From the NCBI RefSeq assembly GCF_016888165.1, contig NZ_JACSWC010000260.1:1-61124 (forward strand): a stretch of 61,124 bases of DNA, given 5' to 3'. This DNA is from Halomicronema sp. CCY15110. Lineage in GTDB: Bacteria; Cyanobacteriota; Cyanobacteriia; Phormidesmidales; Phormidesmidaceae. Of the stretch, positions 31,057 through 53,044 are shown piece after piece. Made by a program: the position numbers and the translations under genes. The notes beneath the pieces are model-generated. The model saw nothing but the letters and a program-made list of their open reading frames with translations, did not search any database and was not told where the DNA came from. Position 1 is the first letter of the stretch; each line of letters starts with the position of its first letter.

Positions 31057-32028
31057 CTAGCGGTCTAAGGGACTTCTTACACCACGCCCACCTCGATTAA
31101 GCACATGGGTATAGATCATGGTTGTCTTCACATCTTTATGGCCAAGCAATTCCTGAATGGTGCGAATGTCATAGCCATTTTCCAACAGGTGGGTGGCAAA
31201 ACTATGGCGAAACGTGTGGCAACCGACTCTTTTCTGGATACCCGCCTGTCGTACAGCTCGCTTTACTGCCTTTTGTAGTCCACTTTCATGCAAGTGGAAA
31301 CGCACAATCGCGCCACTACGAGGATCTTTACATCGCGTCGAAGCCGGGAAGACAAACTGCCAAACCCACTGGCGGTTGGCATTCGGGTATTTGCGAGCCA
31401 ACGCAAAAGGTAATGTAACCGCTCCATAGCCCAGGTTTAAATCTTGCTGATGAGTGTGCTTGACCTGCTGCAAGTGTTCCTTAAGCGGCATCTGCACACT
31501 GTTAGGCAACATTGTGAGTCGGCTTTCTTGGCCCTTGGCATCACGCACCACAATCTGAGACTGGGGAAAATCCAAATCTTTAATGCGGAGTTGCATCGCC
31601 TCCCGCAGCCGCAAGCCACTGCCATAAAGCAATTGCACAATCAATCGATGTACTCCTGACATGTGCTGGATCACGGCCCGGACTTCTTCCGAAGTCAAAA
31701 CCGTGGGCAGCTTACGGGAAGACTTTGCTCGAATGGCATCAATCCGCTCATCCAGCGGTAACTGCAAAACGTGTCGATACAAGAAGAGCAGGGCACTCAA
31801 TGCCTGATTCTGAGTAGAGGCTGCCACATGCTCTTGCACTGCCAGGTGGGTGAGGAAGGCTTCTATCTCAGGAACCCCCATCTCTTGAGGATGGCGCTTG
31901 TTATGAAAGAGGATGAAGCGGCGAATCCATTGCACGTAGGTTTGCTCTGTGCGGTAGGAATAATGCTTTAAGCGAACCGCGTCCCGAACCTGATCGAGTA
32001 GTTTCTTCGGACGAGGTTCTGCTTGCAT
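31057..32028 (-). CDS. intI: Integron integrase IntI
   Basis: This 323-residue tyrosine recombinase has catalytic Arg140 (YGSGLRLRE), His271 and Arg274 ([13 protein letters not shown]), His297 (LLGHKD) and Tyr306 (TTMIYTHV), so it looks active. The IntI-specific extra segment is present at about 203-228 ([20 protein letters not shown]), and the end, [12 protein letters not shown], is typical of IntI. This segment separates integron integrases from XerC/D and phage integrases. The gene is transcribed away from the attI/cassette at 32219-33019, the canonical integron layout. It recombines attI with attC sites to capture and reorder cassettes. Confidence 0.93.
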
Positions 32029-32109: not shown

Positions 32110-32232
32110 TTCCACCTATTTACCCGTATAGGGATCTTAGGTAGACGTAATTCCACCTATCTGCCCTAAACAGGATCTTAGGTGGAAATATTTCCGCCTA
32201 TTTACCCGTACGGGGATCTTAGGTGGAAACTT
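32110..32232. repeat. Three tandem 41-bp hairpin-forming repeats between intI and attI
   Basis: Units begin at 32110, 32151 and 32192. Each opens with ttccacct or ttccgcct and closes with cttaggt(g/a)ga, so each can fold back on itself (ttccaccta against taggtggaa). The last unit runs into the attI-proximal sequence that is copied in inverse orientation at 43268-43300. Possible roles are integrase-binding sites, a regulatory array for intI or the cassette promoter, or a small repetitive element. Confidence 0.75.
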
Positions 32233-32278
32233 TCCCTCTACAAAAGAGTTAAATCGGCGGCGGATTTAAACGTTATTT
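32219..32278 (+). other. Primary attI region of the integron
   Basis: This is the intI-proximal end of the cassette array. The core is gttattt (32272-32278), a near match to GTTRRRY. Recombination would fall after its G, making the cassette start at 32273. The upstream 34 bp (32219-32252) recur inverted at 43268-43300, at the head of the other cassette array. The exact attI limits and integrase sites cannot be fixed by eye. Confidence 0.6.
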
Positions 32279-33013
32279 GTGAGGCAAATATATCAGTTAT
32301 CTGTTAGTGCTTGGGCACCCTAAAAGAGCGATCTCCGCCACGACTTAACTCAATCTTAGGTGCCTTGCCATCCCCCCTTGTTATTTGTCAACTTTGTTCT
32401 ACTCCTAAGTGAGAAAAATGTAAAATGTTATGTGATTGAGAGACTTGCTACCATTCATTGACATAGCCTGATGAGGAAAATGTCTACAGCGGTTGAACGC
32501 GATATCCTTAAGCTGATGTTTCCAGAGAATTCAACGGAAGCTATCCGTTATGTGGGGCATCAAATTAACGTTGTTGACAATATGGGGCAAGGGCTGATGT
32601 CTTTAGGTGGCATTTTGCTAGCCATTACTGCTTCCCTACTCCCTACTTTGAAGTCTCTTGCCAGTGGCGCACGTTTCTTCATCGTGATTGGGTCATCTTT
32701 TGTTCTTGCCTCAATCCTTTGCAATGCCCTATTTGTTTTCCGCGTTCGATGGGTTACACAAATGGAGAATTGCCCATCAGACCATAGCAAAGTTATGGAT
32801 GTGGCGTTGAAAATTCGCTCGAACAAGACACGGGCATATCACATTGCTTTGACAATCATGGTTATTGGCTTGCTATGTTACTTGCTCTCAGTGTATGTGC
32901 TTGCCTTTTCCTGAGCATCTCTGAAGAGCAGCACCTAACAATTCGGGTGCAGCGGATCGACCGATGCCGCTTGCGTGGGGTGCAAAGATGTCGGCAACCG
33001 CTGACCCGAAACG
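32273..33013 (+). mobile_element. Integron gene cassette 1
   Basis: The element runs from the attI crossover (after G at 32272) to the G of the attC right core at 33013. It holds one plus-strand gene (32480-32914) and attC at 32933-33019. Its leader of about 200 bp is longer than usual and may carry its own promoter. The sequence is AT-richer than the plasmid backbone. Confidence 0.75.
32480..32914 (+). CDS. Cassette-encoded three-span membrane protein, effector-like
   Basis: The product has 144 residues from ATG 32480, chosen because gagg lies 5 nt upstream; ATG 32471 would add three. Membrane spans lie at about 35-55 (GLMSLGGILLAITASLL), 65-90 and 118-142. The N-terminal helix ends in RYVGHQINVVDNMGQG before span 1. 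Small proteins with this layout resemble the membrane domains of CBASS/Pycsar-type and SLATT effectors that depolarise membranes on activation, but similarity is by topology only and no sensor gene is beside it. It ends 18 bp before its attC. Confidence 0.7.
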   Translation: MSTAVERDILKLMFPENSTEAIRYVGHQINVVDNMGQGLMSLGGILLAITASLLPTLKSLASGARFFIVIGSSFVLASILCNALFVFRVRWVTQMENCPSDHSKVMDVALKIRSNKTRAYHIALTIMVIGLLCYLLSVYVLAFS

Positions 33014-33019
33014 TTAGCA
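32933..33019 (+). repeat. attC recombination site 1
   Basis: This is an 87-bp imperfect palindrome. The left core acctaac (32933-32939) matches RYYYAAC, and the right core gttagca (33013-33019) is close to GTTRRRY. The inner arms cgggtgcagcgg and ccgctgacccg pair except for one extrahelical G in the left arm, the hallmark that sets attC strand polarity. It lies just downstream of the cassette gene, as expected. Confidence 0.88.
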
Positions 33020-33383
33020 AGACAAGAAAAATGTTGAACTACTTGACTTGTCCCACGTAGAGTAAGTTTTTGTGTAACTCTCCCTAAGGAATAGCTTAGT
33101 CGCTTTTAATTACACTAAAAATTACACGACGAGTTCAAATCGCTTGCCATTAAACGATTCACTTGGGCATAACTCCTTCATTACACAACAAAAGCATGAT
33201 CACTCAGCGATGATCGCAGACCTGAACCTTTCATAACAGGCATTACAACCTTTGTCGTTTGACTTGCGATCAATCAAACGACAAAAACATCAGTCCGCTA
33301 AAAGCAGAACGCCCGCATCCTTGAGGCTTGCCTCCATAGCTACAATACATGTATCTCGCAGCAGCCCCAACGCGGTAACTCGC
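33020..33383. other. Intergenic region between the integron and the Uma2 gene
   Basis: No gene was recognised. It contains the 35-bp inverted-repeat operator at 33251-33285. An AT-rich stretch with tacaatacatgtat near 33340-33353 may be the -10 region for the Uma2 gene that starts at 33384. A frame upstream of that ATG is open from 33252 but includes the operator, so I did not use it. Confidence 0.4.
33251..33285. promoter_or_regulatory. Operator-like inverted repeat, copy A
   Basis: Perfect 12-bp arms tttgtcgtttga and tcaaacgacaaa are separated by 11 bp. The same element, equal in length and spacing with one changed arm base, recurs at 34058-34092 before the next gene. A shared plasmid regulator is implied; the RHH or HTH proteins at 35388-36385 are candidates. 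Confidence 0.7.
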
Positions 33384-37691: not shown

Positions 37692-40271
37692 ATGCAATAC
37701 CGTCGGCGATGCTCCTCCGGAGCGGTTTCACCAACGCCGCGACTCTGGCTCTGGGCTCTCGTCGCCGTTAGCGGCTTTATGGCCGGTGCCCACTTGGTGG
37801 CTCGCATTCAGGGAAACAACGCGCGAGCAGGCTTCACCACCGGCTTGCTCACCGGCTCCGGGCTGGTCGGGACGATCGCGACGCTGCAGGGCTATCAGGC
37901 CCACAAAGATCACTGCAACGAAGCAAAAGACCTGCGATCGCGGCTCAATGCCCTCAGCTATGAGCTGACCCATACCCAGCGCCTGAAAGACGGGCTGGAG
38001 ACCCGACAGCAGGCGCTCCAGAGCCAACTGACAGAGACGACGCAGCAGGCCCAGAGCGCGACAGCAGCCCTGGAACCGATGCAGCAGCGGGTCGTCGTGG
38101 CCGAAGCGGCGGTGGCCGCTTTGAATGCCTCGGAGAAATCCTTGATCGATAAACTCCGTAAAGCCGAAGCGCGGGTGCAGTCCCTCCAAAGCGTAGCCAC
38201 GGTTAACCGCGAAGAAGACTTTAAGCGGGGTCGCACCTATGAGCGTCGTGCCGCTGAGCAGCAGATAGGCAAAGCCCAGCGGGAGAAGTCGCGGGCGATC
38301 GCGGCTTTGGAACAGCACATGGCCCAAACGGTGGCCGCGCTGGAGACGGAATTGGCAGCAGCACGGGAAGAGATTCAGGAGTGGGAAAGCGAGTTTGAAA
38401 CCCAGATCCAACGCCTTGCCGATGAACAAGAGCAGGCGATCCTGGCGCGAGTGGTGGCCGAGGTCAGGCAAGACTATGAGGCCCGTCTCAAACAGGTCAG
38501 CCAAGCCATTCCCCAAGCCGTGCGCAAGCGCTGTGACAAGTACCGGGAAAAGTGGCTGGCGGAGCTGCGAGCGGAACTGGAGGCCGTTACCGCCGAGCGC
38601 GATCGCGCCTGCCAGCGGTTGGAACACTACGAGCGCGAATTTGTCGGCCTTGCCGCCGATGTGGAACAGCTCAATGACACCGACCTGCATCAGGCCCTGC
38701 AGGCCCAGGTGGAATCCCTTCAGGGAGCCCTGGAGCAGAAGAACCGCACCCTTGAGGACTACCAGGCGGCGATCGCCGATCTGGAAGCGCCCCGGTTGTT
38801 TCCGGGCGGGTATGAGCACCACCGGGGCAACCTGCTGATTCGTCATGCCCACGGCCAGGGCATCATCCTGGATGCCCTGCACCGCAGCCGCCATACCGAA
38901 GCAGGGCAAGAAACCTATTACTTTGCCGCTCGCCGTCCAGAACCACCCCGCGAGGTCTTAGCCAAGCTCAACGGGCAGGCCCTGAAGCTCCAGCACGAGC
39001 TAGATTCCAAGAAGACCGTGCAGTTTGAGTACGATTCGGAATCGCTCACCTATCGCTGTGCCATTCAGATCTTCCAGAAGCGTCTGACGCGGGATGAGAT
39101 TGACCGCAAGTGGCTCAAGGCATCCAAGTTCAAAGCCCTGGTCAAAGATGCCTGTGCCTTCCGCGTATCGGCCAATAAAGGCGGCTCCAAATCCCCCACC
39201 GTGCGCAATATTCTGGGGGCGAAGCTGCTGGAAGGCGAGAAGTTCAAGCTGCGGCGATACGACCCCAGTGCCGGAAGCCGCAAGGACTACTGGCGCATTG
39301 CGCCCACCTGGCGCTCTTACCACGATGCCCTGAAGATGGCGGCGGAAATCGAGAGCCTGATCCTGCGGCGACAGCGGGAGAAGAGTGCTCGCAACGGCGC
39401 GGAGTTTGACTGGGTGTTCTACGTCATCGATGAGTTGGACAACACCATGTCTACTCTGGCCGGGGAGAAGGTAGTCGAAGGAGAAGAGGAGATCTCGGCG
39501 GCGAAGGTGGTCATCAATGCGATCGCGAAAGCCGTCAAGGAGGGGGAGCACCTGCAAATCGGCATCATCATCTGCACCCAGACGCCCAACGTCATGCAGC
39601 TGCGCAAATCCGAGGTGATCGACAAAGCCTTCTTCAACAACCTGGCGCAGATCGTCGTGGAAGCCAACGTGTTTGACTACCTGGCCGCCTCTACCGATCA
39701 GACCAAGAGTGCCCGTCTGGCCAGCGACTACCGAGCCGTTTACGACTGGTGCGATAAGGAGAACGAAAGCATTACGGACGAGGCCCGCAAGTATCGTCCG
39801 GCCCTATTCGTGAACAAGGGCAAGCGGGAGGTGATTGAGCTGCCACCACTGGGTGAATTTGGCTTTGACAAGTTGGAGCCCGGTCAGCCCTATGACTTTG
39901 AGGAATTCAACGCTTATGAGTATGCCGGGGCCAGAAGCCTTGATCAGGCGCTGCTGATGGCCTCCAAAGAGCAGGTGGAGCGCACCAGTCTGCTGCCAAC
40001 GCGATCGCCAAACACCGCCCAAACTGCCGTCAACAATGGTTTGGCCAGAGGCACGATCCAAACTCACCAAAGTAACGGGAATGTGGCTGTCGCCGTCGAT
40101 CCAAAGGTTTTGCCTAAAACTGAAGGAGCACCAATTTGCCCGATTTGCGGGGATACGCTTAAGCCCAACGGAAAGGGGCGGGGCAAGTACACTGGCATGA
40201 AGCAGTTCGCCTGCCGCAGTCAGGACCACACTTCCCAGATGGGTAGCAAGACTTTCTATCAAAGTCGCTAG
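37692..40271 (+). CDS. Large membrane coiled-coil protein with degenerate P-loop ATPase domain and zinc ribbon
   Basis: The 859 residues read as follows. One or two membrane spans lie at 17-75 (LWLWALVAVSGFMAGA, then a Gly-rich second segment). A very long coiled coil covers about 85-370. A C-terminal domain with ATPase features comes next: ANKGGSKSPTVRN near 494 in the place of a Walker A (Lys-Ser kept, the Gly before Lys replaced by Ser), Walker B-like WVFYVIDELDN near 575, and a sensor-like IGIIICTQTP near 630. A zinc ribbon ends the protein (CPICG near 816, then a Cys near 838). It resembles FtsK/HerA-like membrane-anchored motors in layout only. The second Cys pair is incomplete by eye. 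Confidence 0.6.
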   Translation: MQYRRRCSSGAVSPTPRLWLWALVAVSGFMAGAHLVARIQGNNARAGFTTGLLTGSGLVGTIATLQGYQAHKDHCNEAKDLRSRLNALSYELTHTQRLKDGLETRQQALQSQLTETTQQAQSATAALEPMQQRVVVAEAAVAALNASEKSLIDKLRKAEARVQSLQSVATVNREEDFKRGRTYERRAAEQQIGKAQREKSRAIAALEQHMAQTVAALETELAAAREEIQEWESEFETQIQRLADEQEQAILARVVAEVRQDYEARLKQVSQAIPQAVRKRCDKYREKWLAELRAELEAVTAERDRACQRLEHYEREFVGLAADVEQLNDTDLHQALQAQVESLQGALEQKNRTLEDYQAAIADLEAPRLFPGGYEHHRGNLLIRHAHGQGIILDALHRSRHTEAGQETYYFAARRPEPPREVLAKLNGQALKLQHELDSKKTVQFEYDSESLTYRCAIQIFQKRLTRDEIDRKWLKASKFKALVKDACAFRVSANKGGSKSPTVRNILGAKLLEGEKFKLRRYDPSAGSRKDYWRIAPTWRSYHDALKMAAEIESLILRRQREKSARNGAEFDWVFYVIDELDNTMSTLAGEKVVEGEEEISAAKVVINAIAKAVKEGEHLQIGIIICTQTPNVMQLRKSEVIDKAFFNNLAQIVVEANVFDYLAASTDQTKSARLASDYRAVYDWCDKENESITDEARKYRPALFVNKGKREVIELPPLGEFGFDKLEPGQPYDFEEFNAYEYAGARSLDQALLMASKEQVERTSLLPTRSPNTAQTAVNNGLARGTIQTHQSNGNVAVAVDPKVLPKTEGAPICPICGDTLKPNGKGRGKYTGMKQFACRSQDHTSQMGSKTFYQSR

Positions 40272-40405
40272 GCAAGGCTTAGTTTTGGACTACATCGTTC
40301 AAAAATTATTGTTTGAAGCGCCAATTCGTCGTTCGCCCAATTCTGATGAATCCTTGCTGTGCTTGGAGAGTGGTTGCTGCTAATGGGGGGCAACTATTCT
40401 GTCAT

Positions 40406-40492
40406 TTTTAACGATGGAATGCAGCGGCAGTAGGCAACCTTGAAGTCCACACCAGTAACTCTCGCCCGTCCGCTGCCACGCAGTGTTTGGGC
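40406..40492 (-). repeat. Probable attC recombination site 3 (diverged)
   Basis: On the minus strand the site runs from gcccaaac (40492-40485), one base longer than RYYYAAC, to gttaaaa (40412-40406), close to GTTRRRY. The inner arms tggcagcgg and ccgctgca pair with one extrahelical G. The length of 87 bp matches the other two sites. It begins 33 bp beyond the stop of the DUF4236 gene, exactly where a cassette attC belongs. It is weaker than sites 1 and 2. Confidence 0.6.
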
Positions 40493-42031
40493 GACTGACA
40501 ACAACCTAAAACTTTACTTGACCTATCAAGACTTAAGAGGTAATAACTCACCCTTTTTACTACAGGCGAATTTACCATTTAAACTTGTAAATGCTGATGT
40601 TGGATCTAAGGAATCTAAATTCAACTGTTCAAAATCTTGCTTTGAAATCTTGATGTGGAGGGAAGTAATATTTTCAGGGTGTCCGTTAGCTGGATTTACT
40701 TGTTCAGTTAAGCCATGAAGTTCTGCTGTATCTACAGAGTAAATAACCCTGAATGTCTCATGAATCAGGCGCAGAGTTAAACCAGTACAAATGTCAGAAT
40801 ATAATTTGAACCTGTCTTTCTGAGCCATTTTTCTGGAAGACAACTTACCAGTTTTAGTTAAACTCATTTTCTCTTCAGGAACTACGTCTAGCTCTGGCAG
40901 CTCCATGAAAATACAAACCGAGTTAACGTCTACGAACTCAATATCAAAGACAAGAGGAATCGGTAAATCTTCGTTAGAAAGCTCGACTTCGAGCAGTTCT
41001 GCAAGTGGCTCTGGATCTTTTGAATTTACAGCGTTTCTTAACCGTCCTCGATATTGTTCTTCGCTATTCCAAATTCGCTTCCTTTCCTCCTGGGAATTTT
41101 GATGTTCTACCTTCTCTAGCTCAATTTTAGCCAAGTAATCTTTATAAGCTCGTTGCTTGCTACGATTAAACTTGTCATTTTCTTCCTTCAGCCTAGCTTG
41201 CAATCGTTGATCACATAATTTATCTAATCGGTTTCGTTCAAAAGCATAACTTGCTGCTGCTAAAACTAACACCGAAAGCGAAGCCCAAAAGCTTTGGAAC
41301 AGAAGGATAAAACCTAGTCCTATCAAGAAATATGTGATATAAAATCTGGAGCTTTTGCTTCTTATTTCCTGCTTCAGTGTTTCTTTCGAGAAAGTTTTTT
41401 CTGGCTCTGCAAAACTCGAAGGCTCATAAATTTCAGGTTGGTATTCTCCTCTTGGAGCAGTTAAGCTCTCCCAATCAAAAAGCTGCTTCTCTCTATTTTT
41501 TAATATATTTGCTAATGAATCAATTTTTGCTTGAAAAAGTTTATAGCCTTCCTCTGCTTCTTGTAATAGTCTCTGCTTCTCCTCCTCCTTCTGTTGCCTC
41601 AGCAATTCTTTATAAGCCGACCTGTTGCTTGAATGAGAAGAGCTAGACCTTGTGTTTCTACCCGAAGAGGTTTGTGTAACATAACTGATTCCTGTGCCGG
41701 GGATACTGTATGTGGAACGAACCCCTCTACTGCTTACGTTAACTGTTGCTCCCCGACCTCCAAGAGATAGACTGCCTCCGCTCTTACTCAGATTGATCTT
41801 GACACCTGGAGCTATTTTTACCGATTTTCTAAATCTGAATCCCATATAGCCACCATTTGGAATAACTCAGTCTTAGTTTGCCCAAAACATACTGAAGAAC
41901 CTACTTGAAGTACTATCTCGATCAATAGCTCTAATTTCGGGTCACTGCAATAATTTTCACGATAACTTGACCTAGATTCTTACAGATAACCTCTAAACCG
42001 CTGCCCTCACTATCAAGCTGAAGCCACCCAA
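40411..42031 (-). mobile_element. Integron gene cassette 3 (DUF4236 gene)
   Basis: The cassette is bounded by the crossover points of attC 2 (near 42031) and attC 3 (near 40411) and holds one minus-strand gene. It is AT-rich compared with its left neighbour. Its limits depend on attC 3, which is diverged. Confidence 0.55.
40526..41845 (-). CDS. DUF4236 membrane protein
   Basis: This ORF encodes 439 residues. The N-terminal DUF4236 domain is clear: MGFRFRKSVKIAPGVKINLS, then GGRGATVNVSSRGVRSTYSIPGTG in pieces near 28-52. A Ser-rich linker, a coiled coil (about 75-120), two adjacent membrane spans (about 168-205), a second coiled coil (205-265) and a C-terminal beta-rich domain follow. The function of DUF4236 proteins is unknown. 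Large proteins of this type are unusual cargo for a gene cassette, which normally holds a short ORF. Confidence 0.85.
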   Translation of the reverse strand: MGFRFRKSVKIAPGVKINLSKSGGSLSLGGRGATVNVSSRGVRSTYSIPGTGISYVTQTSSGRNTRSSSSHSSNRSAYKELLRQQKEEEKQRLLQEAEEGYKLFQAKIDSLANILKNREKQLFDWESLTAPRGEYQPEIYEPSSFAEPEKTFSKETLKQEIRSKSSRFYITYFLIGLGFILLFQSFWASLSVLVLAAASYAFERNRLDKLCDQRLQARLKEENDKFNRSKQRAYKDYLAKIELEKVEHQNSQEERKRIWNSEEQYRGRLRNAVNSKDPEPLAELLEVELSNEDLPIPLVFDIEFVDVNSVCIFMELPELDVVPEEKMSLTKTGKLSSRKMAQKDRFKLYSDICTGLTLRLIHETFRVIYSVDTAELHGLTEQVNPANGHPENITSLHIKISKQDFEQLNLDSLDPTSAFTSLNGKFACSKKGELLPLKS

Positions 42032-42110
42032 CGTTCCTGTTGAGCGGTCAAACATAACTCCTGTAGCTGATGACACTTTTGCTTAATCCGCTCCAACAGA
42101 ATTGTTATGC
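42026..42110 (-). repeat. attC recombination site 2
   Basis: On the minus strand the left core is gcataac (42110-42104) and the right core gttgggt (42032-42026), a perfect GTTRRRY. The inner arms ctgttggagcgg and ccgctcaacag pair fully except for one extrahelical G. The site is 85 bp long and starts 8 bp after the stop of the gene at 42118-43071. This is the cleanest attC geometry together with site 1. Confidence 0.88.
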
Positions 42111-43214
42111 GGCTTGTTTATCCCTCTTCAGGAACAATGATTGAGAAAATCCTCCTATGATGCTCATCTATAGTCGAAAGTAATCCTCTGTCTTCTGGAT
42201 CCCAAGTAAGCACACGTAACTCAGGTTTACAAACTCGATACAATTCCTCAAATCTTCGTTTATTACTGTGTGGAGAAGATGACAGCACGTGAGCGGCAGT
42301 ATAAGCAATTAGATCTGCTACTTCAAGCAGAGCAGGCTTTGCATTATCTGGAAAAGATTCTGGAATTAATGTTTTTTGAGTTTTTGGATCTTTACTCTGG
42401 TAGTTACGATGAGCTTGAACTCGCTTGCCAAACCAAGGAATCTTAGTGCGGTCTGGGTCAACCCAAACTCGTACATTATCCACACCTAATCTTTCAAATA
42501 GTGGCATTGCAACCCCCTGGAAGAGAATTCCTGCGAGTTGCTTCGTCTCCATTACACATCCAGAAAAATCAGCACTATCCGAAAATTCAGTAGGGTACTC
42601 ATTTCTGTTGACGGCACAAACACAATACATAGGACGGCAAGTACGCAGTTCTCTCAGCAGGATTTTCAAGAAAATGAAAACCTCTTCGTTTGACCACTCC
42701 CGCCAAGCTGATTTGGCTCTGGCATGGTCGTTAAAAAGAACTCGGCAGTGCAATATATCGGAAGGTGATAATCCATGCTCTTTCTTTAACTCTGTGAGTA
42801 AATTTTCTGCTGCTCTCCAATCATGCTTATGAAGAACAAGCAGCCCATAAACCACAACTTCCTTAAACGAACTTTCATCTCCAAAAGCATGAAATAGCTG
42901 CTCATTTACCTGCTGGAAGTGTAAAGGAACAATCATCTCAGAACCACAACCTAAACACACTACCCGTAGAACCCTTTCACCTGGTTGCGGAAATACCTGA
43001 ACTGGCGTTTGTAAGCCACAACCACCAGCCCGAAGATCATGAAGCACGTTAATTGTTAATGGGATCAACATTAGAGTCAGTTCACAAACTTATGATTATC
43101 CTAATAAAGATTTGAGCGTACTTAAGTTATCACCAATCAATGAATACCACTATTTCCTGGTTGGAATTGTGCTGCATAAGTAGGTACGGATAATTAATTC
43201 GAGGTAGAGATAAC
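42032..43214 (-). mobile_element. Integron gene cassette 2 (DUF3800-like gene)
   Basis: The cassette runs from a probable attI-like crossover (gttatct on the minus strand, 43214-43208) to the right core of attC 2, and holds the gene at 42118-43071. With cassette 3 it forms a tandem array on the minus strand, opposite in orientation to cassette 1. No integrase gene adjoins this array. Confidence 0.6.
42118..43071 (-). CDS. DUF3800-like protein in a gene cassette
   Basis: This ORF encodes 317 residues. After an N-terminal zinc-like segment (VVCLGCGSEM near 37) comes HAFGDESSFKEVVVYGLLVL near 61, resembling the D-E-S start of DUF3800, then a mixed alpha/beta body. LLEVADLIAYTAAHVL near 248 corresponds to the conserved Q/E-x-A-D-L-I-A-Y end of that family. 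DUF3800 proteins are predicted RNase H-like nucleases seen in mobile and defence contexts. The assignment is by motif recall. The stop lies 8 bp from attC 2. Confidence 0.65.
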   Translation of the reverse strand: MLIPLTINVLHDLRAGGCGLQTPVQVFPQPGERVLRVVCLGCGSEMIVPLHFQQVNEQLFHAFGDESSFKEVVVYGLLVLHKHDWRAAENLLTELKKEHGLSPSDILHCRVLFNDHARAKSAWREWSNEEVFIFLKILLRELRTCRPMYCVCAVNRNEYPTEFSDSADFSGCVMETKQLAGILFQGVAMPLFERLGVDNVRVWVDPDRTKIPWFGKRVQAHRNYQSKDPKTQKTLIPESFPDNAKPALLEVADLIAYTAAHVLSSSPHSNKRRFEELYRVCKPELRVLTWDPEDRGLLSTIDEHHRRIFSIIVPEEG

Positions 43215-43300
43215 GGCAGCTCAAGGGTTCCAGTCGTTTCCACCTCGGTTTATTTACCCCAAGCTACTTAACTCTTATTAGAGGGAAACTTTCCACCTAA
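43208..43300 (-). other. Second, inverted attI-like region
   Basis: Bases 43268-43300, read on the minus strand, match 32219-32252 beside the integrase gene in roughly nine of ten positions. Both are followed within about 55 bp by a gtta core (43214-43208 here, 32272-32278 there) that begins a gene cassette. The site therefore looks like a duplicated or inverted attI without its own intI, heading cassettes 2 and 3. Confidence 0.6.
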
Positions 43301-43507
43301 AATGATGGACTCTCAAAGTCATTAGAACACCTCAGCCATAAGGCTTTCTATGGCTTTCAAACCCATCTTACAGTAGATAATTATGTGGAATGGTATCACC
43401 CTCCTCAGCGAGAACACATACTCGATTGGTTGCCCTGCACCGCAAACATTCAAGCCTTAACGACCAGAATATTTCCGTTGCTAAAACTAAGTCAGCAATG
43501 ATGGTTA
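43301..43507 (+). other. Open frame without start, possible gene remnant
   Basis: A plus-strand frame of 68 codons runs from just after a TAA at 43298 to a TGA, with no ATG at its head. It reads SLEHLSHKAFYGFQTHL and later DNYVEWYHPPQREH. It looks more like protein than noise and could be a remnant of a transposase or host gene, but I cannot identify it. Nothing else was seen between 43215 and 43545. Confidence 0.25.
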
Positions 43508-43545
43508 CGAGCGAAAATTCCAGCAGGCGAAATCCTCCGACTCCT

Positions 43546-44091
43546 TTACGCTACGGCAGGCTGAATAGCTTCTCGTTGCCGAACCTGCAAAATGCCCTTC
43601 GCGGTCTCTTCAGCCGCTGTCTGGGCTAGCGCTTGCCAGTCATCCTCAGTGAGCATTTGTGCCAGCATCGCGATCGCCTGCGATCGCACCGTCTTCTGCT
43701 CAGGGACAATCTTCTGGGCATCTTCTGCCAGTAGAGCCTCCAGCCAGGTAGCTTGTTCGGGTGTGGGCTGCTGAAGATGCTCAAACAGTCGCCGTTGCGC
43801 TTCGATGTAGACAGCCTCGAAGCTCAGCCCCAATTCCCAGGACTGCAGCCACGCTTTCAGCTCTGGCAACAAAATCGAGAGCAGCTGCACCTGGCGGCGC
43901 CGCTGGCGAAAGGCAGCTGGGGTCACGGTGGCTAATTGCTCAACATAGCCTTTTAAGCCCAGACCGGCTTCAACCTGCCCGCCGCACTCGGCTTCAATGG
44001 CCTCCGTTTCGCGCACCCAGGCGTCATCGTTGAGCAAATCCAGTAAGTTGCCCGTTTTTTTGAGCTGCTGAGCCAAAATCTCGTCATTCAT
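43546..44091 (-). CDS. Helical protein of unknown function, partner of the GNAT-like gene
   Basis: This ORF encodes 181 residues, almost entirely helical with many Leu, Gln and Glu residues and no membrane span. It follows the GNAT-like gene by 9 nt on the minus strand, so the two are probably co-transcribed. No family was recognised. A chaperone, substrate or antitoxin of the acetyltransferase are all conceivable. Confidence 0.6.
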   Translation of the reverse strand: MNDEILAQQLKKTGNLLDLLNDDAWVRETEAIEAECGGQVEAGLGLKGYVEQLATVTPAAFRQRRRQVQLLSILLPELKAWLQSWELGLSFEAVYIEAQRRLFEHLQQPTPEQATWLEALLAEDAQKIVPEQKTVRSQAIAMLAQMLTEDDWQALAQTAAEETAKGILQVRQREAIQPAVA

Positions 44092-44100
44092 GGAAGCTGC

Positions 44101-44646
44101 CTAACGTTGTAATGCCGGGTACTCGAAGTATACCAATCCGTCTTTATCCGGGTCGGGGCCATAGTCGGCCATATTGTTGAGGTGATAAAAGGTTTCAGTT
44201 CTGGGGAGTGAGTGCAGGCCGACGCGCCCCCCATAGCCAAGTTCTACGCTGCGCTGACGAGCCAGCAAAAGGAGCGATCGCCCCACGCCTGCCAGGTAGG
44301 GGGGATCTTCAATGGGCCGACGATTCCACGGGGCCGAAGCCAGGTACTCCACGTAGACCAGGAGCGATCGCGCTGGCAACCAGGATCGGTGCCACTGGGT
44401 TTCTAGCAGCATGACGCCCTGCACCAACTCCTCCCACTCAATGGCGTAGGCTTCGTAGCGGCTATCGTTCACGGCTAAGCGCAGTTTGTAGGCCCAGTCC
44501 CAACTGATATCAGGTTCCTGAGCGGCTTGAAGGATGGCTCGCCAGAAAGTATCAATTTGCTCCACATGCGCCAGCGTGAGGGGACAGAAGGTGGCGGTGA
44601 CAGTTTCGTTAGGCGGCTTTTGGAGCAAAACGGGGCGGCGGGTCAT
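44101..44646 (-). CDS. GNAT-like acetyltransferase
   Basis: The product has 181 residues. The GNAT core is suggested by VMLLETQWH (strand), YLAGVGRSLLLLARQRSVELG near 118 (the Q/RxxGxG/A-type acetyl-CoA loop and helix, here LAGVGRSLL) and VGLHSLPRTETFYHLNNM (motif B region with the usual aromatic before the final helix). Substrate is unknown. It probably pairs with the gene at 43546-44091. Confidence 0.6.
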   Translation of the reverse strand: MTRRPVLLQKPPNETVTATFCPLTLAHVEQIDTFWRAILQAAQEPDISWDWAYKLRLAVNDSRYEAYAIEWEELVQGVMLLETQWHRSWLPARSLLVYVEYLASAPWNRRPIEDPPYLAGVGRSLLLLARQRSVELGYGGRVGLHSLPRTETFYHLNNMADYGPDPDKDGLVYFEYPALQR

Positions 44647-44837
44647 AAAATCCCTGATTCAGACTTCAAGGTGGGGAAACTTAATAAAGGAATAGACAGT
44701 TTTCCCTACAGAGCAGGAAAAATATTGATAAATCTCATACCCTGGGAATTTTACGTAACCTCTATCTGGCTAGCTCAGTAGAGTCATCAGTTATACCCTT
44801 TGGGGCCAACCTTAGAGGAAAGCATAAAGCGATCGCC

Positions 44838-47800
44838 ATGCTGAAAACAGTCAAAGATGCCTGCAAGGTTCATCCCTCAACACTGGACTACCAAGTTGCT
44901 GGAGGGGTTGAGAGCCTAGCTCAGATGATTGATGCGAGCGATGAGGGACAAGCCTTCTTTGCGAAAAGCTATCTCACCCGTGGCATGGAAGAACTGCTCC
45001 GAGAGGGATTGCTGCGATTATCAGGGCAAACCGATCAGGCCCTGTTTGAACTGGCTCAGGCGATGGGGGGTGGTAAAACTCACCTGATGTGCGCCCTTGG
45101 GCTGCTGGCTAAATATCCGTCGCAGCGATCGCACGTCTTACCCAGCGATGTCATTGCTCGTCTGGACAATCAGCCTGCCCGTGTCGCGGTGTTCGATGGT
45201 CGCGATAGTCCCGATCATTATTTGTGGGGCGAAATTGCTAAGCAGCTTGGCGCAGAAGAGCAGATGCGCCAATTCTGGAAAGATGGGCCGAAGGCTCCGG
45301 GTAAAGAGCACTGGAAAGAAATTATTGGCGATCGCCCCACCTTAATCCTGTTCGACGAGCTGCCCCCCTACTTTCTGGAAGCGCGAACGGTGCCGGTCGG
45401 TCGGGGCTCGATGGTAGACGTCCTGACCCGAGCGTTATCGAACTTGTTTGTGGCCGCGCTGGAGCTGCCCCGCTGCTGCGTTGTGCTAGCCAACTTATCG
45501 GACAGCTACCGCGAACAAGTGAAGGAGGTCAAGAAACTCGTTGCGGATGTGCAGCGAGAAGCCTCGCGACAGGCCAATAAAATTACCCCGGTTTCTCTAG
45601 AGGGGAGCGAAATCTACTCGATTTTGCGGAAGCGATTATTCTCAGAGCTGCCGACTGACGAAGAAATTGATGAGGTGGCAGAAGCCTACGCCGCCCAGGT
45701 GAAGCTGGCCGAAGACAGCGGCTATTTGACCGCTCGCAGCTTAGAGCAAATTGCCGACGAAATTCGGGCCACCTATCCCTTTCATCCGGCATTTAAGCAT
45801 CTGGTCGCGCTGTTTAAGGACAACCCGGATTTTCGTGAAACCCGTGGCCTGTTGCAGTTTGCGGCGCGGGTCATTCGCTCGGCCTGGAATCGTGATCAGA
45901 ATGATGTCTTTCTGATTGGCACTCAACACCTCAACCTGAACGACAGCCAGGTCATGAACGAGGTGACGGACATTAACCGGGCGCTGCGTCCGGCCATCAC
46001 GATGGACATTGCCGACAATGGCAACGCCCATGCCGAAGAAATTGATGCCAATCTCAACAGTGATGCCGCCTCTCAGGTCGCGGCCATGATTCTTTCCGCC
46101 TCGTTATCCCTAGCGGTGAAAGGGCACATGGGGCTGCGCCGAGAGGAAGTGATTGAGTACCTGGCTGCACCCAACCGCAAACCCGAGGAGTTTGCCCAGG
46201 CATTTGAACGGCTGCGGAAAACGGCCTGGTATCTCCATGCAGACGGCGAGCTGTTCTATTTCAAAGATACGGAGAACCTGACCAAGCGCATTCAGCGAGA
46301 GGCCCAGGGATTGCCCAAGGCCAAGGTTGATAAAGTGCTGCGCACCCGTTTAGAGGGGGAACTGGAGGCGGTGTCCAAGCGGGCTTATCAAGAAGTGCTG
46401 GTGATGCCAGAGATCGACGAGATTCGGTTGAGCACCCATCGCATTTTGGTGGTGGTGCCGCCGGACAACAGTGTGCCGCCAGAAGACATCCATCGGTTTT
46501 ACCGGTCGGTGTCAGAAAAGAACAACCTGCTGGTGTTGTCGGGTAACGACACCCACATGGCTAGTCGGGTTGAAGAGTCCCTGCGAGAGCTGTACGCAAT
46601 TGAGAACATCGCTAAAAGCATCAATTCCAGCGATACCCTCTATGCCCAGGCTCAAGATGCGCAGGAAGAGGCTGAGGGGGCATTTCTGCAGTCCCTTCAG
46701 GGCACCTATAACCGTGTGTTTTACCCTGCCGAAGATGGCCTTCAGCAAGCCACCATTGAGAATGGCCTGAAGTTTGGACACACCAGCGAGGACAGTGTCG
46801 AAACCCAGCTTGAAAAGATGCTGGAAAGTATGCGCTGCGACAACAAGCTGGCGACGGATGCTGAGCAAGACCCACTGCCCTACTTCGCGATGGCCGAAGA
46901 AGAACTATGGCCTCAGAACGATCGCCGCACCCCCTGGCGTGATGTGCTGATGCGTGCCAAGAGTAACCCCGCTTGGCCGTGGCTACCGGGCATAAAGGGG
47001 CTGGATCAGCTCAAGGTCAAGGCGCTGTCTCAGGGACGCTGGCGCGAGGGAAATGACGGTTGGATTGAGAAAGGCCCATTTCCAAAAGAGAAAACATCGG
47101 TCAATATCGTCAGCCAGAACCAAGACACGCAGACTGGGGAGACGGATTTCACGCTCACGCCTTTACATGCCGGACCCAGCCCGAAGGTTCACTACAGCAC
47201 GGTTGCTCAGGTCAACCAAAACGATCCGGTGGTGGAGGACTTGGATGCCTTTCGGACGAAAGAGCCGACACTCTATTTTCTGGCAATCGACACGACGAGT
47301 AACCATGCAACGGGTGAGCCGAAGCGGTGGGTGGCCAAGCTTAAAATCCGCTATCAAGTGCACGATCGCCCCGATCATCGAGAGGTAGAACTCGCTGTAA
47401 CGCCTAATGCCGTGCTGCGCTACACCGTTGATGCCACCAATCCTCGGGAGGGTCGGATCTATGAAGATCCCGTACCGATTTCTGATAGTCAAATCTTGCT
47501 TCAGGTTTATGCCAGTGCGGGTGAAGCCTCGGCAACGGAAACCTTCACCATCGCCGAGAAGGGCACCAAGCGGGTGGAACTCGATGAAACTCAACCGGCC
47601 AAAATTGTCCGGGTTAAACCTCGCTTTGACACCACTGGCGCGGTCTATGGTGTCATCGCCCACTTCAAAGATCGCCAGGGCGTCATTTTCCACGGAGTCA
47701 CCCTCAATGTGGGTGAGGGAGAACAAGCCGTCCAGGTCAGGTTCAATGACCGACCTGTCACCCCGGCCATTTTGGAAAAGGTTATTGAGGCCCTGCGAGA

Positions 47801-47933
47801 CAATCTGGGTGAGCCAGATGCTTTGGTACAGTTAACTATTCGGGATGGGGCTGCTTTTAATACTGGGTTTGATCTAAAAACCTTCGCAGAACTTGCAGGC
47901 ATTGAGTTAACCCCCAACACGGTGGAGCAGTAA
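44838..47933 (+). CDS. DUF499 AAA+ ATPase of a multi-gene defence module
   Basis: This 1031-residue protein has Walker A AMGGGKTHLM near 75 and Walker B TLILFDELPP near 167, with a sensor-like RCCVVLANLSDSYR near 214. A long helical domain (about 230-560) and beta-rich C-terminal domains follow. It is a DUF499-type predicted ATPase (COG1483). In the known neighbourhood it stands with DUF3780, a DUF1156 methylase and a PLD/SNF2 helicase, all present here, and the family is annotated as anti-phage associated. Its biochemical job in the module is not known. It is the first gene of the plus-strand operon, and the next starts 1 nt after its stop. Confidence 0.85.
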   Translation: MLKTVKDACKVHPSTLDYQVAGGVESLAQMIDASDEGQAFFAKSYLTRGMEELLREGLLRLSGQTDQALFELAQAMGGGKTHLMCALGLLAKYPSQRSHVLPSDVIARLDNQPARVAVFDGRDSPDHYLWGEIAKQLGAEEQMRQFWKDGPKAPGKEHWKEIIGDRPTLILFDELPPYFLEARTVPVGRGSMVDVLTRALSNLFVAALELPRCCVVLANLSDSYREQVKEVKKLVADVQREASRQANKITPVSLEGSEIYSILRKRLFSELPTDEEIDEVAEAYAAQVKLAEDSGYLTARSLEQIADEIRATYPFHPAFKHLVALFKDNPDFRETRGLLQFAARVIRSAWNRDQNDVFLIGTQHLNLNDSQVMNEVTDINRALRPAITMDIADNGNAHAEEIDANLNSDAASQVAAMILSASLSLAVKGHMGLRREEVIEYLAAPNRKPEEFAQAFERLRKTAWYLHADGELFYFKDTENLTKRIQREAQGLPKAKVDKVLRTRLEGELEAVSKRAYQEVLVMPEIDEIRLSTHRILVVVPPDNSVPPEDIHRFYRSVSEKNNLLVLSGNDTHMASRVEESLRELYAIENIAKSINSSDTLYAQAQDAQEEAEGAFLQSLQGTYNRVFYPAEDGLQQATIENGLKFGHTSEDSVETQLEKMLESMRCDNKLATDAEQDPLPYFAMAEEELWPQNDRRTPWRDVLMRAKSNPAWPWLPGIKGLDQLKVKALSQGRWREGNDGWIEKGPFPKEKTSVNIVSQNQDTQTGETDFTLTPLHAGPSPKVHYSTVAQVNQNDPVVEDLDAFRTKEPTLYFLAIDTTSNHATGEPKRWVAKLKIRYQVHDRPDHREVELAVTPNAVLRYTVDATNPREGRIYEDPVPISDSQILLQVYASAGEASATETFTIAEKGTKRVELDETQPAKIVRVKPRFDTTGAVYGVIAHFKDRQGVIFHGVTLNVGEGEQAVQVRFNDRPVTPAILEKVIEALRDNLGEPDALVQLTIRDGAAFNTGFDLKTFAELAGIELTPNTVEQ

Positions 47934-47934
47934 C

Positions 47935-48579
47935 ATGGTTTTAGTACAAAGGTACTCAGCTCCTATGGTCAACGAACCAAAAAAAACACGCAGACAGGCC
48001 AACCAACCCGCCCACGCCACTCAAGGTTTTGGGGTACCCCTCACCGCTGCGCCTCACCATTTCGTGGTGATCATTCCTCGGGGCAACAAGCAGCCGGTGC
48101 AGATTGTGGAAGACTTGGGCATGCACACCGTGGGTGATGACAGTGAACTGCTCGATCGCGTCGTTTTACCTCGCTCAGCCTGGACAGAAATTGCCAATCC
48201 GGTGAAGCGGATGTTTAATGAGCGCCTGAAAGCCCATGAGCTGAAACCAGGGCAGTGGAAGGTGGGGGAAAACCGCGTCGATCGCTTGCTGGGTAAAGAA
48301 CTTTGTGTGTTGGCCTGGGCGATCGAAGACCTGGAAGAGGAAAAGGTCGGCACGGCCCTACGGAACTGGTTAGCCTTACGCCCGGAGGAGCGCTGGTGGC
48401 TGTTTGGTATGACGGCAACCACGGTGGGTGGCCCTGGCGATGCGGGGCGAGGGTGGCGCATGGCGCTGAAATATGCCCTGGGCGATACCCCGCAGCCCAC
48501 GATTCGGGAACCTCGGAAAGCGGGAAAGCCTGATGCTGATGAAAATATCTATGAAACCTTGCCCCTCTTTCAAAATTAA
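47935..48579 (+). CDS. DUF3780 protein of the defence module
   Basis: The product has 214 residues (203 if translation starts at Met12). GFGVPLTAAPHHFVVIIPRG near 29, RVVLPRSAWTEIANPVKRMFN near 74 and LCVLAWAIEDLE near 124, together with RPEERWWLFGMTA near 151, match what I recall of DUF3780. It belongs between the DUF499 ATPase and DUF1156 methylase. The C-terminal ADENIYETLPLFQN is repeated out of context at 49298-49357. Function is unknown; its presence marks this module type. Confidence 0.82.
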   Translation: MVLVQRYSAPMVNEPKKTRRQANQPAHATQGFGVPLTAAPHHFVVIIPRGNKQPVQIVEDLGMHTVGDDSELLDRVVLPRSAWTEIANPVKRMFNERLKAHELKPGQWKVGENRVDRLLGKELCVLAWAIEDLEEEKVGTALRNWLALRPEERWWLFGMTATTVGGPGDAGRGWRMALKYALGDTPQPTIREPRKAGKPDADENIYETLPLFQN

Positions 48580-48622
48580 TGTTGGATTCTAAGATTTAGA
48601 GCAAGTCTATGGGAGTCCCCTG

Positions 48623-48940
48623 ATGAATTACCTGGCGACAGACTATAAGCATATTCAGCTGGATGAGCACCAAGTGCCAGTGATTGAAGGCAGCACTATG
48701 AAGGTGGTGGAGCTGATTACTTCGCATCTCACCTATGGCTGGAGTCCAGAAGAACTCCACTTTCAATATCCTCACATCGGCCTGGGCAAAATTTACTCAG
48801 CCCTGGCCTACTACTGGGATCACCAAGCCACGCTGGAAAACGACATGAAACAGCGCCTTGCCAAAGTGCAGACCCTACAGCAGCAGGCTCCCCCGTCGCG
48901 TATTGCCCAACAACTGAGGGAGCGAGGGGTCATCTCTTGA
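48623..48940 (+). CDS. DUF433 antitoxin (pair 1)
   Basis: This ORF encodes 105 residues. The DUF433 domain is seen in VPVIEGSTMKVVELITSHLTYGWSPEELHFQYPHIGLGKIYSAL (read in pieces at 18-61): a short winged HTH-like fold. The C-terminal helix would bind the toxin. It overlaps the DUF5615 gene by 4 nt, the usual arrangement. It likely represses its own operon and neutralises the PIN-like partner. Confidence 0.85.
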   Translation: MNYLATDYKHIQLDEHQVPVIEGSTMKVVELITSHLTYGWSPEELHFQYPHIGLGKIYSALAYYWDHQATLENDMKQRLAKVQTLQQQAPPSRIAQQLRERGVIS

Positions 48941-49284
48941 GCATCGCTTTCTACATGGATGAAAACGTGCCACGACAAATTACGGTGGGCTTGCGACTCC
49001 GCGATATTGATGTCCTGACCGTGCAAGCAGATGACCGGGCGGGTATGGCTGACCCAGAAGTCATCGCGCGAGCCACCGAACTGCAAAGAGTCTTGTTTTC
49101 GAGAGATGACGATCTCTTAGCCCTGGCCCATCAGCGCCAACGGGAGGACATCGCTTTTTCTGGCGTGGTGTACGCCCATCCCCAACGGATCAGCATCGGT
49201 GATTGCGTGAAGGATTTAGAGCTGATTGCCAAGTTCACCACCTTAGAAGACGCGCTGAACCAAGTTCAATATCTACCGCTCTAG
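48937..49284 (+). CDS. DUF5615 PIN-like toxin (pair 1)
   Basis: The product has 115 residues. AFYMDENVPRQITVGLR carries the first acidic PIN residues (Asp-Glu), and RVLFSRDDDLLALAH near 52 the second acidic cluster. DUF5615 proteins are predicted PIN-fold RNases that pair with DUF433 antitoxins. It ends just before the duplicated DUF3780 tail, so this pair sits inside a disrupted operon junction. Confidence 0.85.
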   Translation: MSIAFYMDENVPRQITVGLRLRDIDVLTVQADDRAGMADPEVIARATELQRVLFSRDDDLLALAHQRQREDIAFSGVVYAHPQRISIGDCVKDLELIAKFTTLEDALNQVQYLPL

Positions 49285-49297
49285 CCCCACTCCTGTT

Positions 49298-49357
49298 GTT
49301 GCCGATGCTGACACCGATGAAAATATCTATGAAACTCTGCCGCTCTTTCAAAACTAG
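49298..49357 (+). pseudogene. Duplicated C-terminal fragment of the DUF3780 gene
   Basis: The frame ends VADADTDENIYETLPLFQN followed by a stop. This repeats the last residues of the DUF3780 protein (ADENIYETLPLFQN, ending at 48579) with several silent differences (act ctg ccg against acc ttg ccc). It has no start of its own. It is best explained as the original tail left behind when toxin-antitoxin pair 1 entered together with a diverged copy of the DUF3780 end. Confidence 0.75.
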
Positions 49358-49415
49358 CTTTTAGTCTAAGGATGAAAGGGCACCCACGATCGCAATTCAT
49401 ACCACGGTGAGGCCA

Positions 49416-49640
49416 ATGGATCAGACTCATTCCTTAGATATGCTTGAACGACATCCAGACAAGGTCAGCGGTGCTTGGGTGTTTAAGGGCACGCGGGTGC
49501 CGGTGGCCGCGCTGTTTGAAAACCTCAAAGACGGGGCTTCCATCGACCAATTTCTAGAATGGTTTCCCGGCGTCTCCCGCGCCCAGGTCGAGGCCCTGCT
49601 GGACTATGAACTGACCATGCTGGAGCAAATGGCGAGTTAA
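49416..49640 (+). CDS. DUF433 antitoxin (pair 2)
   Basis: The product has 74 residues from ATG 49416; a GTG at 49407 would add three. KVSGAWVFKGTRVPVAALFENLKDG near 15 and FLEWFPGVSRAQVEALLDYE near 46 are typical DUF433 features, and the protein is the compact form of the family, unlike pair 1. Its stop overlaps the toxin ATG. Confidence 0.87.
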   Translation: MDQTHSLDMLERHPDKVSGAWVFKGTRVPVAALFENLKDGASIDQFLEWFPGVSRAQVEALLDYELTMLEQMAS

Positions 49641-49960
49641 TGAAAATTCTGTTCGATCAAGGAACGCCGGTGCCGCTGCGCCGCTTTCTGTCAGGACACA
49701 CCGTTGATACCGCTTATGAACGGGGATGGTCAGAGATATCAAACGGTAATTTGCTCAGCAAAGCAGAACAAGAGGGTTACGAGCTGTTAATCACCACCGA
49801 TCGCAACCTGCGCTATGAGCAAAATTTAACGGATCGCCAAATTGCGATCGCGGTCTTGATGACCACCTCTTGGCCGCGCATCAAGCCGCACACTGATCGC
49901 ATTCAAGCGATTATCGATGCCATTCAACCCGGCACCTACCAAGAAATTCCCATTGAGTAA
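49640..49960 (+). CDS. DUF5615 PIN-like toxin (pair 2)
   Basis: This ORF encodes 106 residues. MKILFDQGTPVPLRRFLSGH is the family start with the first acidic residue, WSEISNGNLLSKAEQEGYE follows, and LLITTDRNLRYEQNL near 50 carries the second acidic site. This is the canonical short DUF5615 toxin. It is unlike pair 1 in sequence, so the two pairs arrived separately rather than by local duplication. Confidence 0.87.
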   Translation: MKILFDQGTPVPLRRFLSGHTVDTAYERGWSEISNGNLLSKAEQEGYELLITTDRNLRYEQNLTDRQIAIAVLMTTSWPRIKPHTDRIQAIIDAIQPGTYQEIPIE

Positions 49961-49965
49961 CGCCC

Positions 49966-50012
49966 CCTCTAGTCCCCTCTCCCCAGGGAGAGGGCTAGGG
50001 TGAGGTTTTTCG
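49966..50012. repeat. C/G-rich palindromic intergenic repeat
   Basis: cctctccc and gggagagg pair around cca, extended by tag/cta on each side. It resembles dispersed palindromic repeats of the type cccctctcc-cagggagagggc found in many genomes. It lies between toxin pair 2 and the methylase gene, inside the reading frame that would extend the methylase to 50000; this favours the later start at 50039. Confidence 0.6.
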
Positions 50013-50038
50013 ACCACACCAAAGCCAACGTGACCACC

Positions 50039-53000: not shown

Positions 53001-53044
53001 AAGCCGAGATTATCGGCGATCGCATCCGCAACGAAGGGATCTAG
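50039..53044 (+). CDS. DUF1156 adenine-specific DNA methyltransferase of the defence module
   Basis: From ATG 50039 the protein has 1001 residues. The N-terminal DUF1156 segment (SLIERVFPAQKISAEAQKER near 10) precedes motif I GDTFCGGGSIPFEAARLG near 229, then YASDLNPVA; the catalytic motif TDPPYADAINYHE lies near 618. It is a COG1743-type methylase and probably protects host DNA in the module. Base composition is mosaic: about 50825-52050 is clearly AT-richer than both flanks and falls between motifs I and IV, where target recognition would lie. That suggests exchange of the recognition region by recombination. Confidence 0.87.
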   Translation: MPTLTPLSLKDAPSLIERVFPAQKISAEAQKERKAGAGQTLTALGSYWKGRKPLIMVRAIVLGCLLPVTDDLEADLHIFEKLMGMDDEAFGRREPKLKVSEIAERITLANPWDYFDYTNKVYDPDDIEALQFPLDAGQYPKLKVRWQRGLADEKKYPLLAQALEGLSYEEKVGLCRRPEEIDPAVLYGPIWDEVNAHLGALGVEAYSHEELVEQLGILRYGHRPRVGDTFCGGGSIPFEAARLGCDVYASDLNPVACMLTWGAFNIIGANSEQRAKIEKAQNEVAEAVDQEITKLSIEHNERGDRVKAFLYCLETRCPETGWLVPMLPSRVVGTLQRTIAKLVPNHEEKRFEIEIVSGVSKEELEEAKAGTIDDIYLNYELDGKSYKTPIRTIRGDRKSSGENTENNLRSWRKSDFLPDKDDIFRERLYCIYWVTRETVEEARQDTYFASVTEADLDKEHKVEEIVASNIQAWQEDGLVPDMPIEGGAETTRLHRERGWHYWNHLFSARQLHYLALTKSKISDPSLYISLAKTLNRTSKLCTVDPRNEAAKREITIQGVFYNQALNTLYTYGVRPWFMAHPQFVEDTKQFRIAEVDTKIDCIPANKLEKESDIFVTDPPYADAINYHEITEYFISWLRKNPPAPFDQWTWDSRRALAIKGDGKDFKQGMVDAYRAMTHHMPDNGLQCVMFTHQDTGVWADMVSIFWAAGLQVVSAWYIATETTSELKQGGYVQGTVTLLLRKRLDTASTFKQRLLPKIRQEVQAQIEAMLNLNDAAQTHGETVFNDSDLQMAGYAAALKVLTRYTEVDGRDVTTLALQPRQKGETTVVDAIVEYASEVANNLLIPDRLKALNPDTWREISGVERFYLRMAAIEKTGAAKLDNYQNFSKAFHVEYQPLMASLKPNQARLKGAKQFKPRELTSGDLAGTLLSELLMAIQELLNDKDPKVVLGQIRTSLDDTYFQKRLHLMAMAHYLSDMWDGARPEEAQKAEIIGDRIRNEGI

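Follow-up and report, generated by a model that had tools for sequence, protein, structure and literature searches.

How can two gene cassettes come to lie in tandem, each with its attC site, when no integrase gene stands beside them? Arrays without integrase are common, and how they arise is a matter of debate, with off-target insertion, loss of intI and rearrangement under discussion (PMC8618304). The question is raised by a stretch of 61,124 nucleotides from Halomicronema sp. CCY15110 (contig NZ_JACSWC010000260.1), which was analysed as a whole and is called the window here. It harbors a complete integron and, about 11 kb from its intI gene, a second array in the opposite orientation. Genes for ParA, ParB and a coupling protein of the TraG/VirD4 type are present on the contig, which is therefore probably a plasmid or an integrative element; an 859-aa backbone protein gave weak plasmid matches only. 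The DNA adjoining the second array and its surroundings (44838-53044) carries DUF499, DUF3780 and DUF1156 methyltransferase genes resembling an anti-phage-associated set (PADLOC, NCBIfam). All features are compiled in Table 1.

Table 1. Features of the minus-strand array, its surroundings and the complete integron (window coordinates; the slash in G/TT marks the crossover point; R1, attC model; R2, attI model).
Feature	Position	Strand	Remarks
Putative whole element, non-autonomous Tn3-type transposon with truncated attI and two cassettes	about 40276..43493	-	terminal repeat, conserved inner segments, copies in relatives
Bases AGCAA flanking the element, candidate target duplication of 5 bp	43494..43498		pairs with GGCAA 40271-40275, 4/5 bases
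Intact 38-bp terminal inverted repeat GACTTAGTTTTAGCAACGGAAATATTCTGGTCGTTAAG	43456..43493	-	repeat pattern in 4/59 genomes
Left inner segment, conserved	43304..43455	-	L192, L216, L217, L197
Truncated attI	43269..43302	-	crossover between G43272 and T43271; R2
Cassette 1	42032..43271	-	1240 bp; limits are attI G/TT and attC2 G/TT
Cassette 1 gene	42118..43071	-	317 aa, weakly DUF3800-like, orphan
attC2	42022..42114	-	R1, 52.4 bits
Cassette 2	40412..42031	-	1620 bp; limits are the attC2 and attC3 crossover points
Cassette 2 gene	40526..41845	-	439 aa, DUF4236 N-terminus
attC3, diverged	40410..40487	-	R1, 52.0 bits
Right inner segment, conserved	40283..40411	-	starts at crossover TT; L192, L199, L217, L197, L194, L195, L196
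Remnant tip GGCTTAGTTTT of right terminal repeat, rest deleted	40276..40286	+	adjoins GGCAA 40271-40275
IntI, full-length, candidate trans supplier	31057..32028	-	TIGR02249, 475 bits (cutoff 265)
Full attI of complete integron	32110..32252	+	41-bp repeats, then core GAG/TTAAAT
attC1, intI-proximal cassette (gene 32471-32914)	32929..33023	+	R1, 71.5 bits

Two Tandem Cassettes on the Minus Strand

With hand-written finders, attC1 or attC3 escaped detection until the finders were relaxed, and therefore a covariance model (R1) was built from 21 attC sites, all of them from other loci and without any window sequence. The helix covariation of the model was 0.397, compared with 0.094 for shuffles. 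In the 61-kb window, R1 gave three strong matches only, attC1 adjoining intI and, both on the minus strand, attC2 (E 8e-10) and attC3 (E 9e-10). Rfam gave no matches in the window or in the array, neither with gathering nor with relaxed thresholds. The R'' box of attC3 reads CCCAAAC and the single-strand fold of this site is not above that of shuffled sequence, yet it reached 52.0 bits, and its sequence resembles a good attC of a relative (GCCTAACACTGCGTGGCAGCGGAC). Both attC2 and attC3 are genuine by sequence and by the structure model, attC3 being diverged, as the initial annotation had described it. The attC model and the exact attI and attC junctions also agree with the second array of two tandem cassettes on the opposite strand that had been proposed there, and position and size of both genes had been given correctly.

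The labels of the two proteins fared differently. The DUF4236 assignment of the 439-aa protein was confirmed for residues 3-55 only (75.1 bits against a Pfam cutoff of 27, E 6e-21), and the DUF3800 label of the 317-aa protein turned out to be sub-threshold (14.9 bits against a cutoff of 21, E 0.044). At E ≤ 1e-15, relatives of the 317-aa protein were absent from 290 other genomes, a search of genome contigs and plasmids also returned none, and its AlphaFold model from the single sequence was too poor to use. The cassettes had been called unusually large. In the same genome, another attI-to-attC unit (L015, 4139-7543) begins with an attI that lacks an integrase and continues with an SDR gene, two more minus-strand genes, a plus-strand LysR-like gene and then an attC, and its cassette of about 3.35 kb speaks against that description.

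If the two genes belonged to a backbone, they would be expected elsewhere in a context lacking attC, and homologues of both were sought. Homologues of the DUF4236 gene were found at 82% in a relative (L178) and at 67% in a more distant cyanobacterium (L179). L178 has the same cassette: segment 42011-40459 is found again there, with similarity that begins near the cassette boundary and stops inside a degraded attC. The homologue in L179 occurs without attC, and the DUF3800-like gene had no relative to compare. A sigma-70-like promoter sought in 43000-43560 was not found.

A Truncated attI Site at the Start of the Array

Because little has been described of attI sites other than those of class 1 integrons, and the standard program does not detect them (PMC9024848), an attI beside an integrase-free array goes unseen. 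A simple attI model reveals the start of the array directly. The model (R2) comprised 17 attI sites beside intI genes, 16 from relatives and one from contig C110 of this genome, with none from the window. Directly ahead of the DUF3800-like cassette it matched with 25.5 bits (E 6e-5 genome-wide), covering model positions 26-60 of 63. In the window itself, 37 bp of the intI-adjacent attI (32216-32252) are repeated in inverted orientation at 43303-43268 with 89% identity, and the similarity stops at the G/TT crossover. Most of the attI repeats are missing from this site.

In the complete integron, the attI of this clade (window 32110-32240) consists of 41-bp repeats with alternating inverted boxes TTCCACCTA and TAGGTGGAA, which stand ahead of many intI genes in relatives. 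The first sequence after it (window 32252-32400) matches, with 79% over 108 bp, the first cassette of the integron in G006, which contains no gene; the attC at 32252-32400 is apparently cut short after R''.

A search of 43304-44700 found no intI; upstream there were weak, chance-level matches only. Compared with a complete integron, the array has part of an attI at its start and lacks the adjacent intI. It has what defines a CALIN, attC2 and attC3 without integrase, the intI about 11 kb off having an array of its own. A simple flip of the second array away from the first was considered and abandoned when the array proved to have an attI, end segments and a terminal repeat of its own.

The cassettes might also have been inserted off target into the transposon described below, at an attG-like site that resembles attI by accident. 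Off-target insertion is an accepted origin of integrase-free arrays (PMC8618304), but the resemblance comprises 34 bp of attI including the core-adjacent box, at the genome-wide E value given above, and this attI half is conserved in all five copies of the unit. We consider an accidental resemblance very improbable.

Terminal Repeat and Conserved Segments around the Array

Ahead of the truncated attI lies an inner segment of 152 bp, which four loci of relatives (Table 1) share with 76-91% identity along about 134-154 bp and which adjoins the same truncated attI in G005, G004 and G027. It is preceded by an intact terminal inverted repeat. On the other side, the 129 bp past attC3 recur in several relatives, either directly after the last attC or alone. 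A transposase ORF is absent from 40276-43493. The initial annotation had recognized the two-cassette minus-strand array and had overlooked the conserved segments at its ends, the terminal repeat of Tn3 type and the shortened attI; the nature of the object therefore differs from what had been described.

The terminal-repeat pattern occurred at 10 places in only four of 59 genomes (G000, G004, G005 and G027), and the reversed control gave 0. An exact scan of 84,980 species for the repeat returned 21 stretches, all cyanobacterial by title. In Phormidium sp. FACHB-1136 (L230), the repeat (37/38) is located beside a 994-aa Tn3 transposase (PF01526, E 8e-134), and Symplocastrum torsivum contains plain elements of 272 and 378 bp with the repeat and perfect 5-bp duplications (CTTAA and CTAAT). 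Because of this transposase and these plain elements, we identify the repeat family, as judged from sequence, as a Tn3-derived miniature element, of which the array appears to be a member with an internal attI dock.

Of the Tn3-related terminal repeats that characterize a TIME, the left one is intact and the right one mostly deleted in the window copy. Two TIME copies around the cargo, as in a TIME-COMP or IMU, were not found, since the left and right inner segments differ; the units L192 and L217 have a single repeat pair only. An empty site without the transposon was sought in the backbone homologues L200-L202, where no contiguous pair of flanks was present; the backbones of G011, G004 and G008 diverge at the right end.

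At another locus of G005 (L213, 2036-6487), a pair of Tn3-type terminal repeats that face inward at a distance of 4.45 kb encloses a 1061-aa protein, which is NACHT NTPase-like by eye. Between them there is no transposase, and no clear target duplication was seen.

Copies in Relatives and Exchange of Cassettes

The same attI truncation together with the left segment was found at four other places in three genomes (L192, L217, L216 and L197); the assemblies compared are drafts or metagenome-derived. The units in G005 (L192) and G004 (L217) have both terminal repeats and, compared with the 4/5 bases shared by the window flanks, perfect 5-bp duplications (TGTAT in G005, GTTCC in G004). Their cargo is a B-lectin gene in G005 and GmrSD_C, PIN and DUF5615 genes in G004, and neither unit contains a transposase ORF.

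In Leptolyngbya sp. RL_3_1 (G027), contig C241 matched window 44637-43260 with 93.0% identity over 1378 bp without gaps. This match spans backbone, terminal repeat, left segment and attI, and immediately after GAG/TTA contig C241 passes to a different cassette; the attI is identical in the window and in the G027 insertion, and the cassette is different. On the other side, contig C194 matched window 40001-40414 (88.4% over 415 bp), with a different attC joined at CG/TTAAAAATGACAG. No intI was detected in the G027 assembly at the 1e-60 threshold. We infer that the two sides, which lie on different contigs in an assembly with 73% completeness, form one orthologous insertion. Both diverge at G/TT, which places the change of cargo at the crossover point of the integrase and evidently dates it after the arrival of the transposon.

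A cassette could also be swapped by homologous recombination between copies, without any integrase, the homology being provided by the conserved segments on the left and on the right. Such recombination is not expected to respect integrase crossover points, though, and the divergence runs from GAG/TTA to CG/TT. We regard a swap of this kind as improbable.

attI Sites without Integrase in the Clade

In this 6.1-Mb genome, R2 matched 12 attI sites. Two of them, in the window and on C110, stand beside near-full-length intI genes, of which that on C110 contains a single internal stop; two others stand beside short intI fragments (C9, 66 aa; C322, 30 aa). Seven have no detectable intI, and one (C106) is too near the contig end to judge. 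Five of the seven are followed by a same-strand attC of at least 46 bits (C98, C222, C352, C388 and the array studied here), and C98 has retained the intI promoter region. A third intI gene (L013, C164; 63% identity) has an attI of another type, which is invisible to R2, and no attC was seen within 9 kb. At L014 (2780-3960), a full integrase-free attI with the intI promoter region and no intI is followed by a TIR-domain gene and an attC of 76.8 bits.

Among the 59 genomes, attI was found at E ≤ 1e-5 in 42, compared with 28 for intI at E ≤ 1e-60. Most of 20 integrase-free attI sites from relatives had a same-strand attC downstream within 6 kb. Six genomes (G003, G011, G012, G052, G054 and G056) had attI matches and intI fragments only. 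Because such genomes have kept attI sites but only fragments of intI, at least part of the integrase-free attI arrays are integrons that lost intI. We rejected the view that off-target or trans insertion alone had filled the dispersed attI sites, as C9 and C322 with their remnants of intI, and C98 with its intI leader, show some to be decayed integrons. In G054 (L166-L171), 19 attI matches were counted beside intI fragments only, some of the attI sites being located mid-array; three of them have about 300 bp of upstream sequence in common, which is not intI.

The window array could be of the same kind, namely a second complete integron that lost its intI in place and whose cassettes are fossils. 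The fragments at C9 and C322, the promoter region at C98 and the several relatives with many attI sites and only N-terminal intI fragments would fit this. However, the four further loci in three genomes agree with the window array in truncation point, conserved ends and terminal repeats, two of them have 5-bp duplications, and the orthologous insertion holds a different cassette. For this unit, the apparently transposed copies disfavour decay in place, and we consider it unlikely.

Discussion

With high probability, in our view, the array is the cargo of a miniature Tn3-type (TIME-like) transposon, the inner region of which has an attI end that would serve as a cassette dock filled in trans. 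IntI would insert and exchange cassettes at the truncated attI, and it may be supplied by a chromosomal gene or, plausibly, by the intact IntI about 11 kb away on the contig. A Tn3-family transposase, also acting in trans, would mobilise the loaded element; neither recombinase appears to be encoded by the element itself. In class 1 integrons, IntI acts in trans on the attI of another plasmid (PMC9668308). Sequence comparison documents the anatomy of the putative element, its apparently transposed copies and the natural cassette exchange. Points against this reading are the deleted right repeat, the duplication of 4/5 bases, the failure to find an empty site in the backbones compared, the separate contigs of the two G027 sides, the missing intI match in G027, the degenerate attC3 and the attI that is short of repeats.

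Only tentatively do we suggest that miniature Tn3-type transposons with an attI dock might be a working cyanobacterial cassette shuttle, with IntI and the Tn3 transposase both provided in trans, and that they might, together with the other integrase-free attI sites, make up a sizeable share of the integrase-free arrays of this clade. The two species form a natural pair that displays cassette exchange at attI without a neighbouring integrase. If the truncated attI is a substrate for IntI supplied in trans, an integrase in cis would be unnecessary for an integron, and a transposon could take the dock to new replicons. This suggests a route by which gene cassettes may spread without an integrase of their own.

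Miniature elements derived from Tn3 and associated with integron cargo have been described before (PMC13367494), as have recombining attI sites of truncated form (PMC12901181). In the literature covered, which is mostly that outside subscription, we found no miniature transposon with an inner attI dock, nor one in cyanobacteria. The element shares Tn3-type terminal repeats, integron cargo and the lack of a transposase with TIME-COMP (Poirel 2009, as cited), and its copies in G004 and G005 also share the 5-bp target duplications. In TIME-COMP, two TIMEs bound the cargo, whereas here there is one repeat pair and the attI dock lies within conserved inner sequence. As in CALINs (PMC8618304, PMC9024848), two attC sites are present without adjacent intI; unlike them, the array has a recognisable attI and is enclosed by a transposon with homologues elsewhere. 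It has the attI type, the attC type and the G/TT cassette joints in common with the complete integron of the window, from which it differs by lacking intI and most attI repeats. Truncated attI sites are also found as Delta-attI of class 1 integrons, where they take part in recombination (PMC12901181). Those sites are located inside mobile resistance integrons with IntI1, while the truncated attI described here is part of what is probably a miniature transposon.
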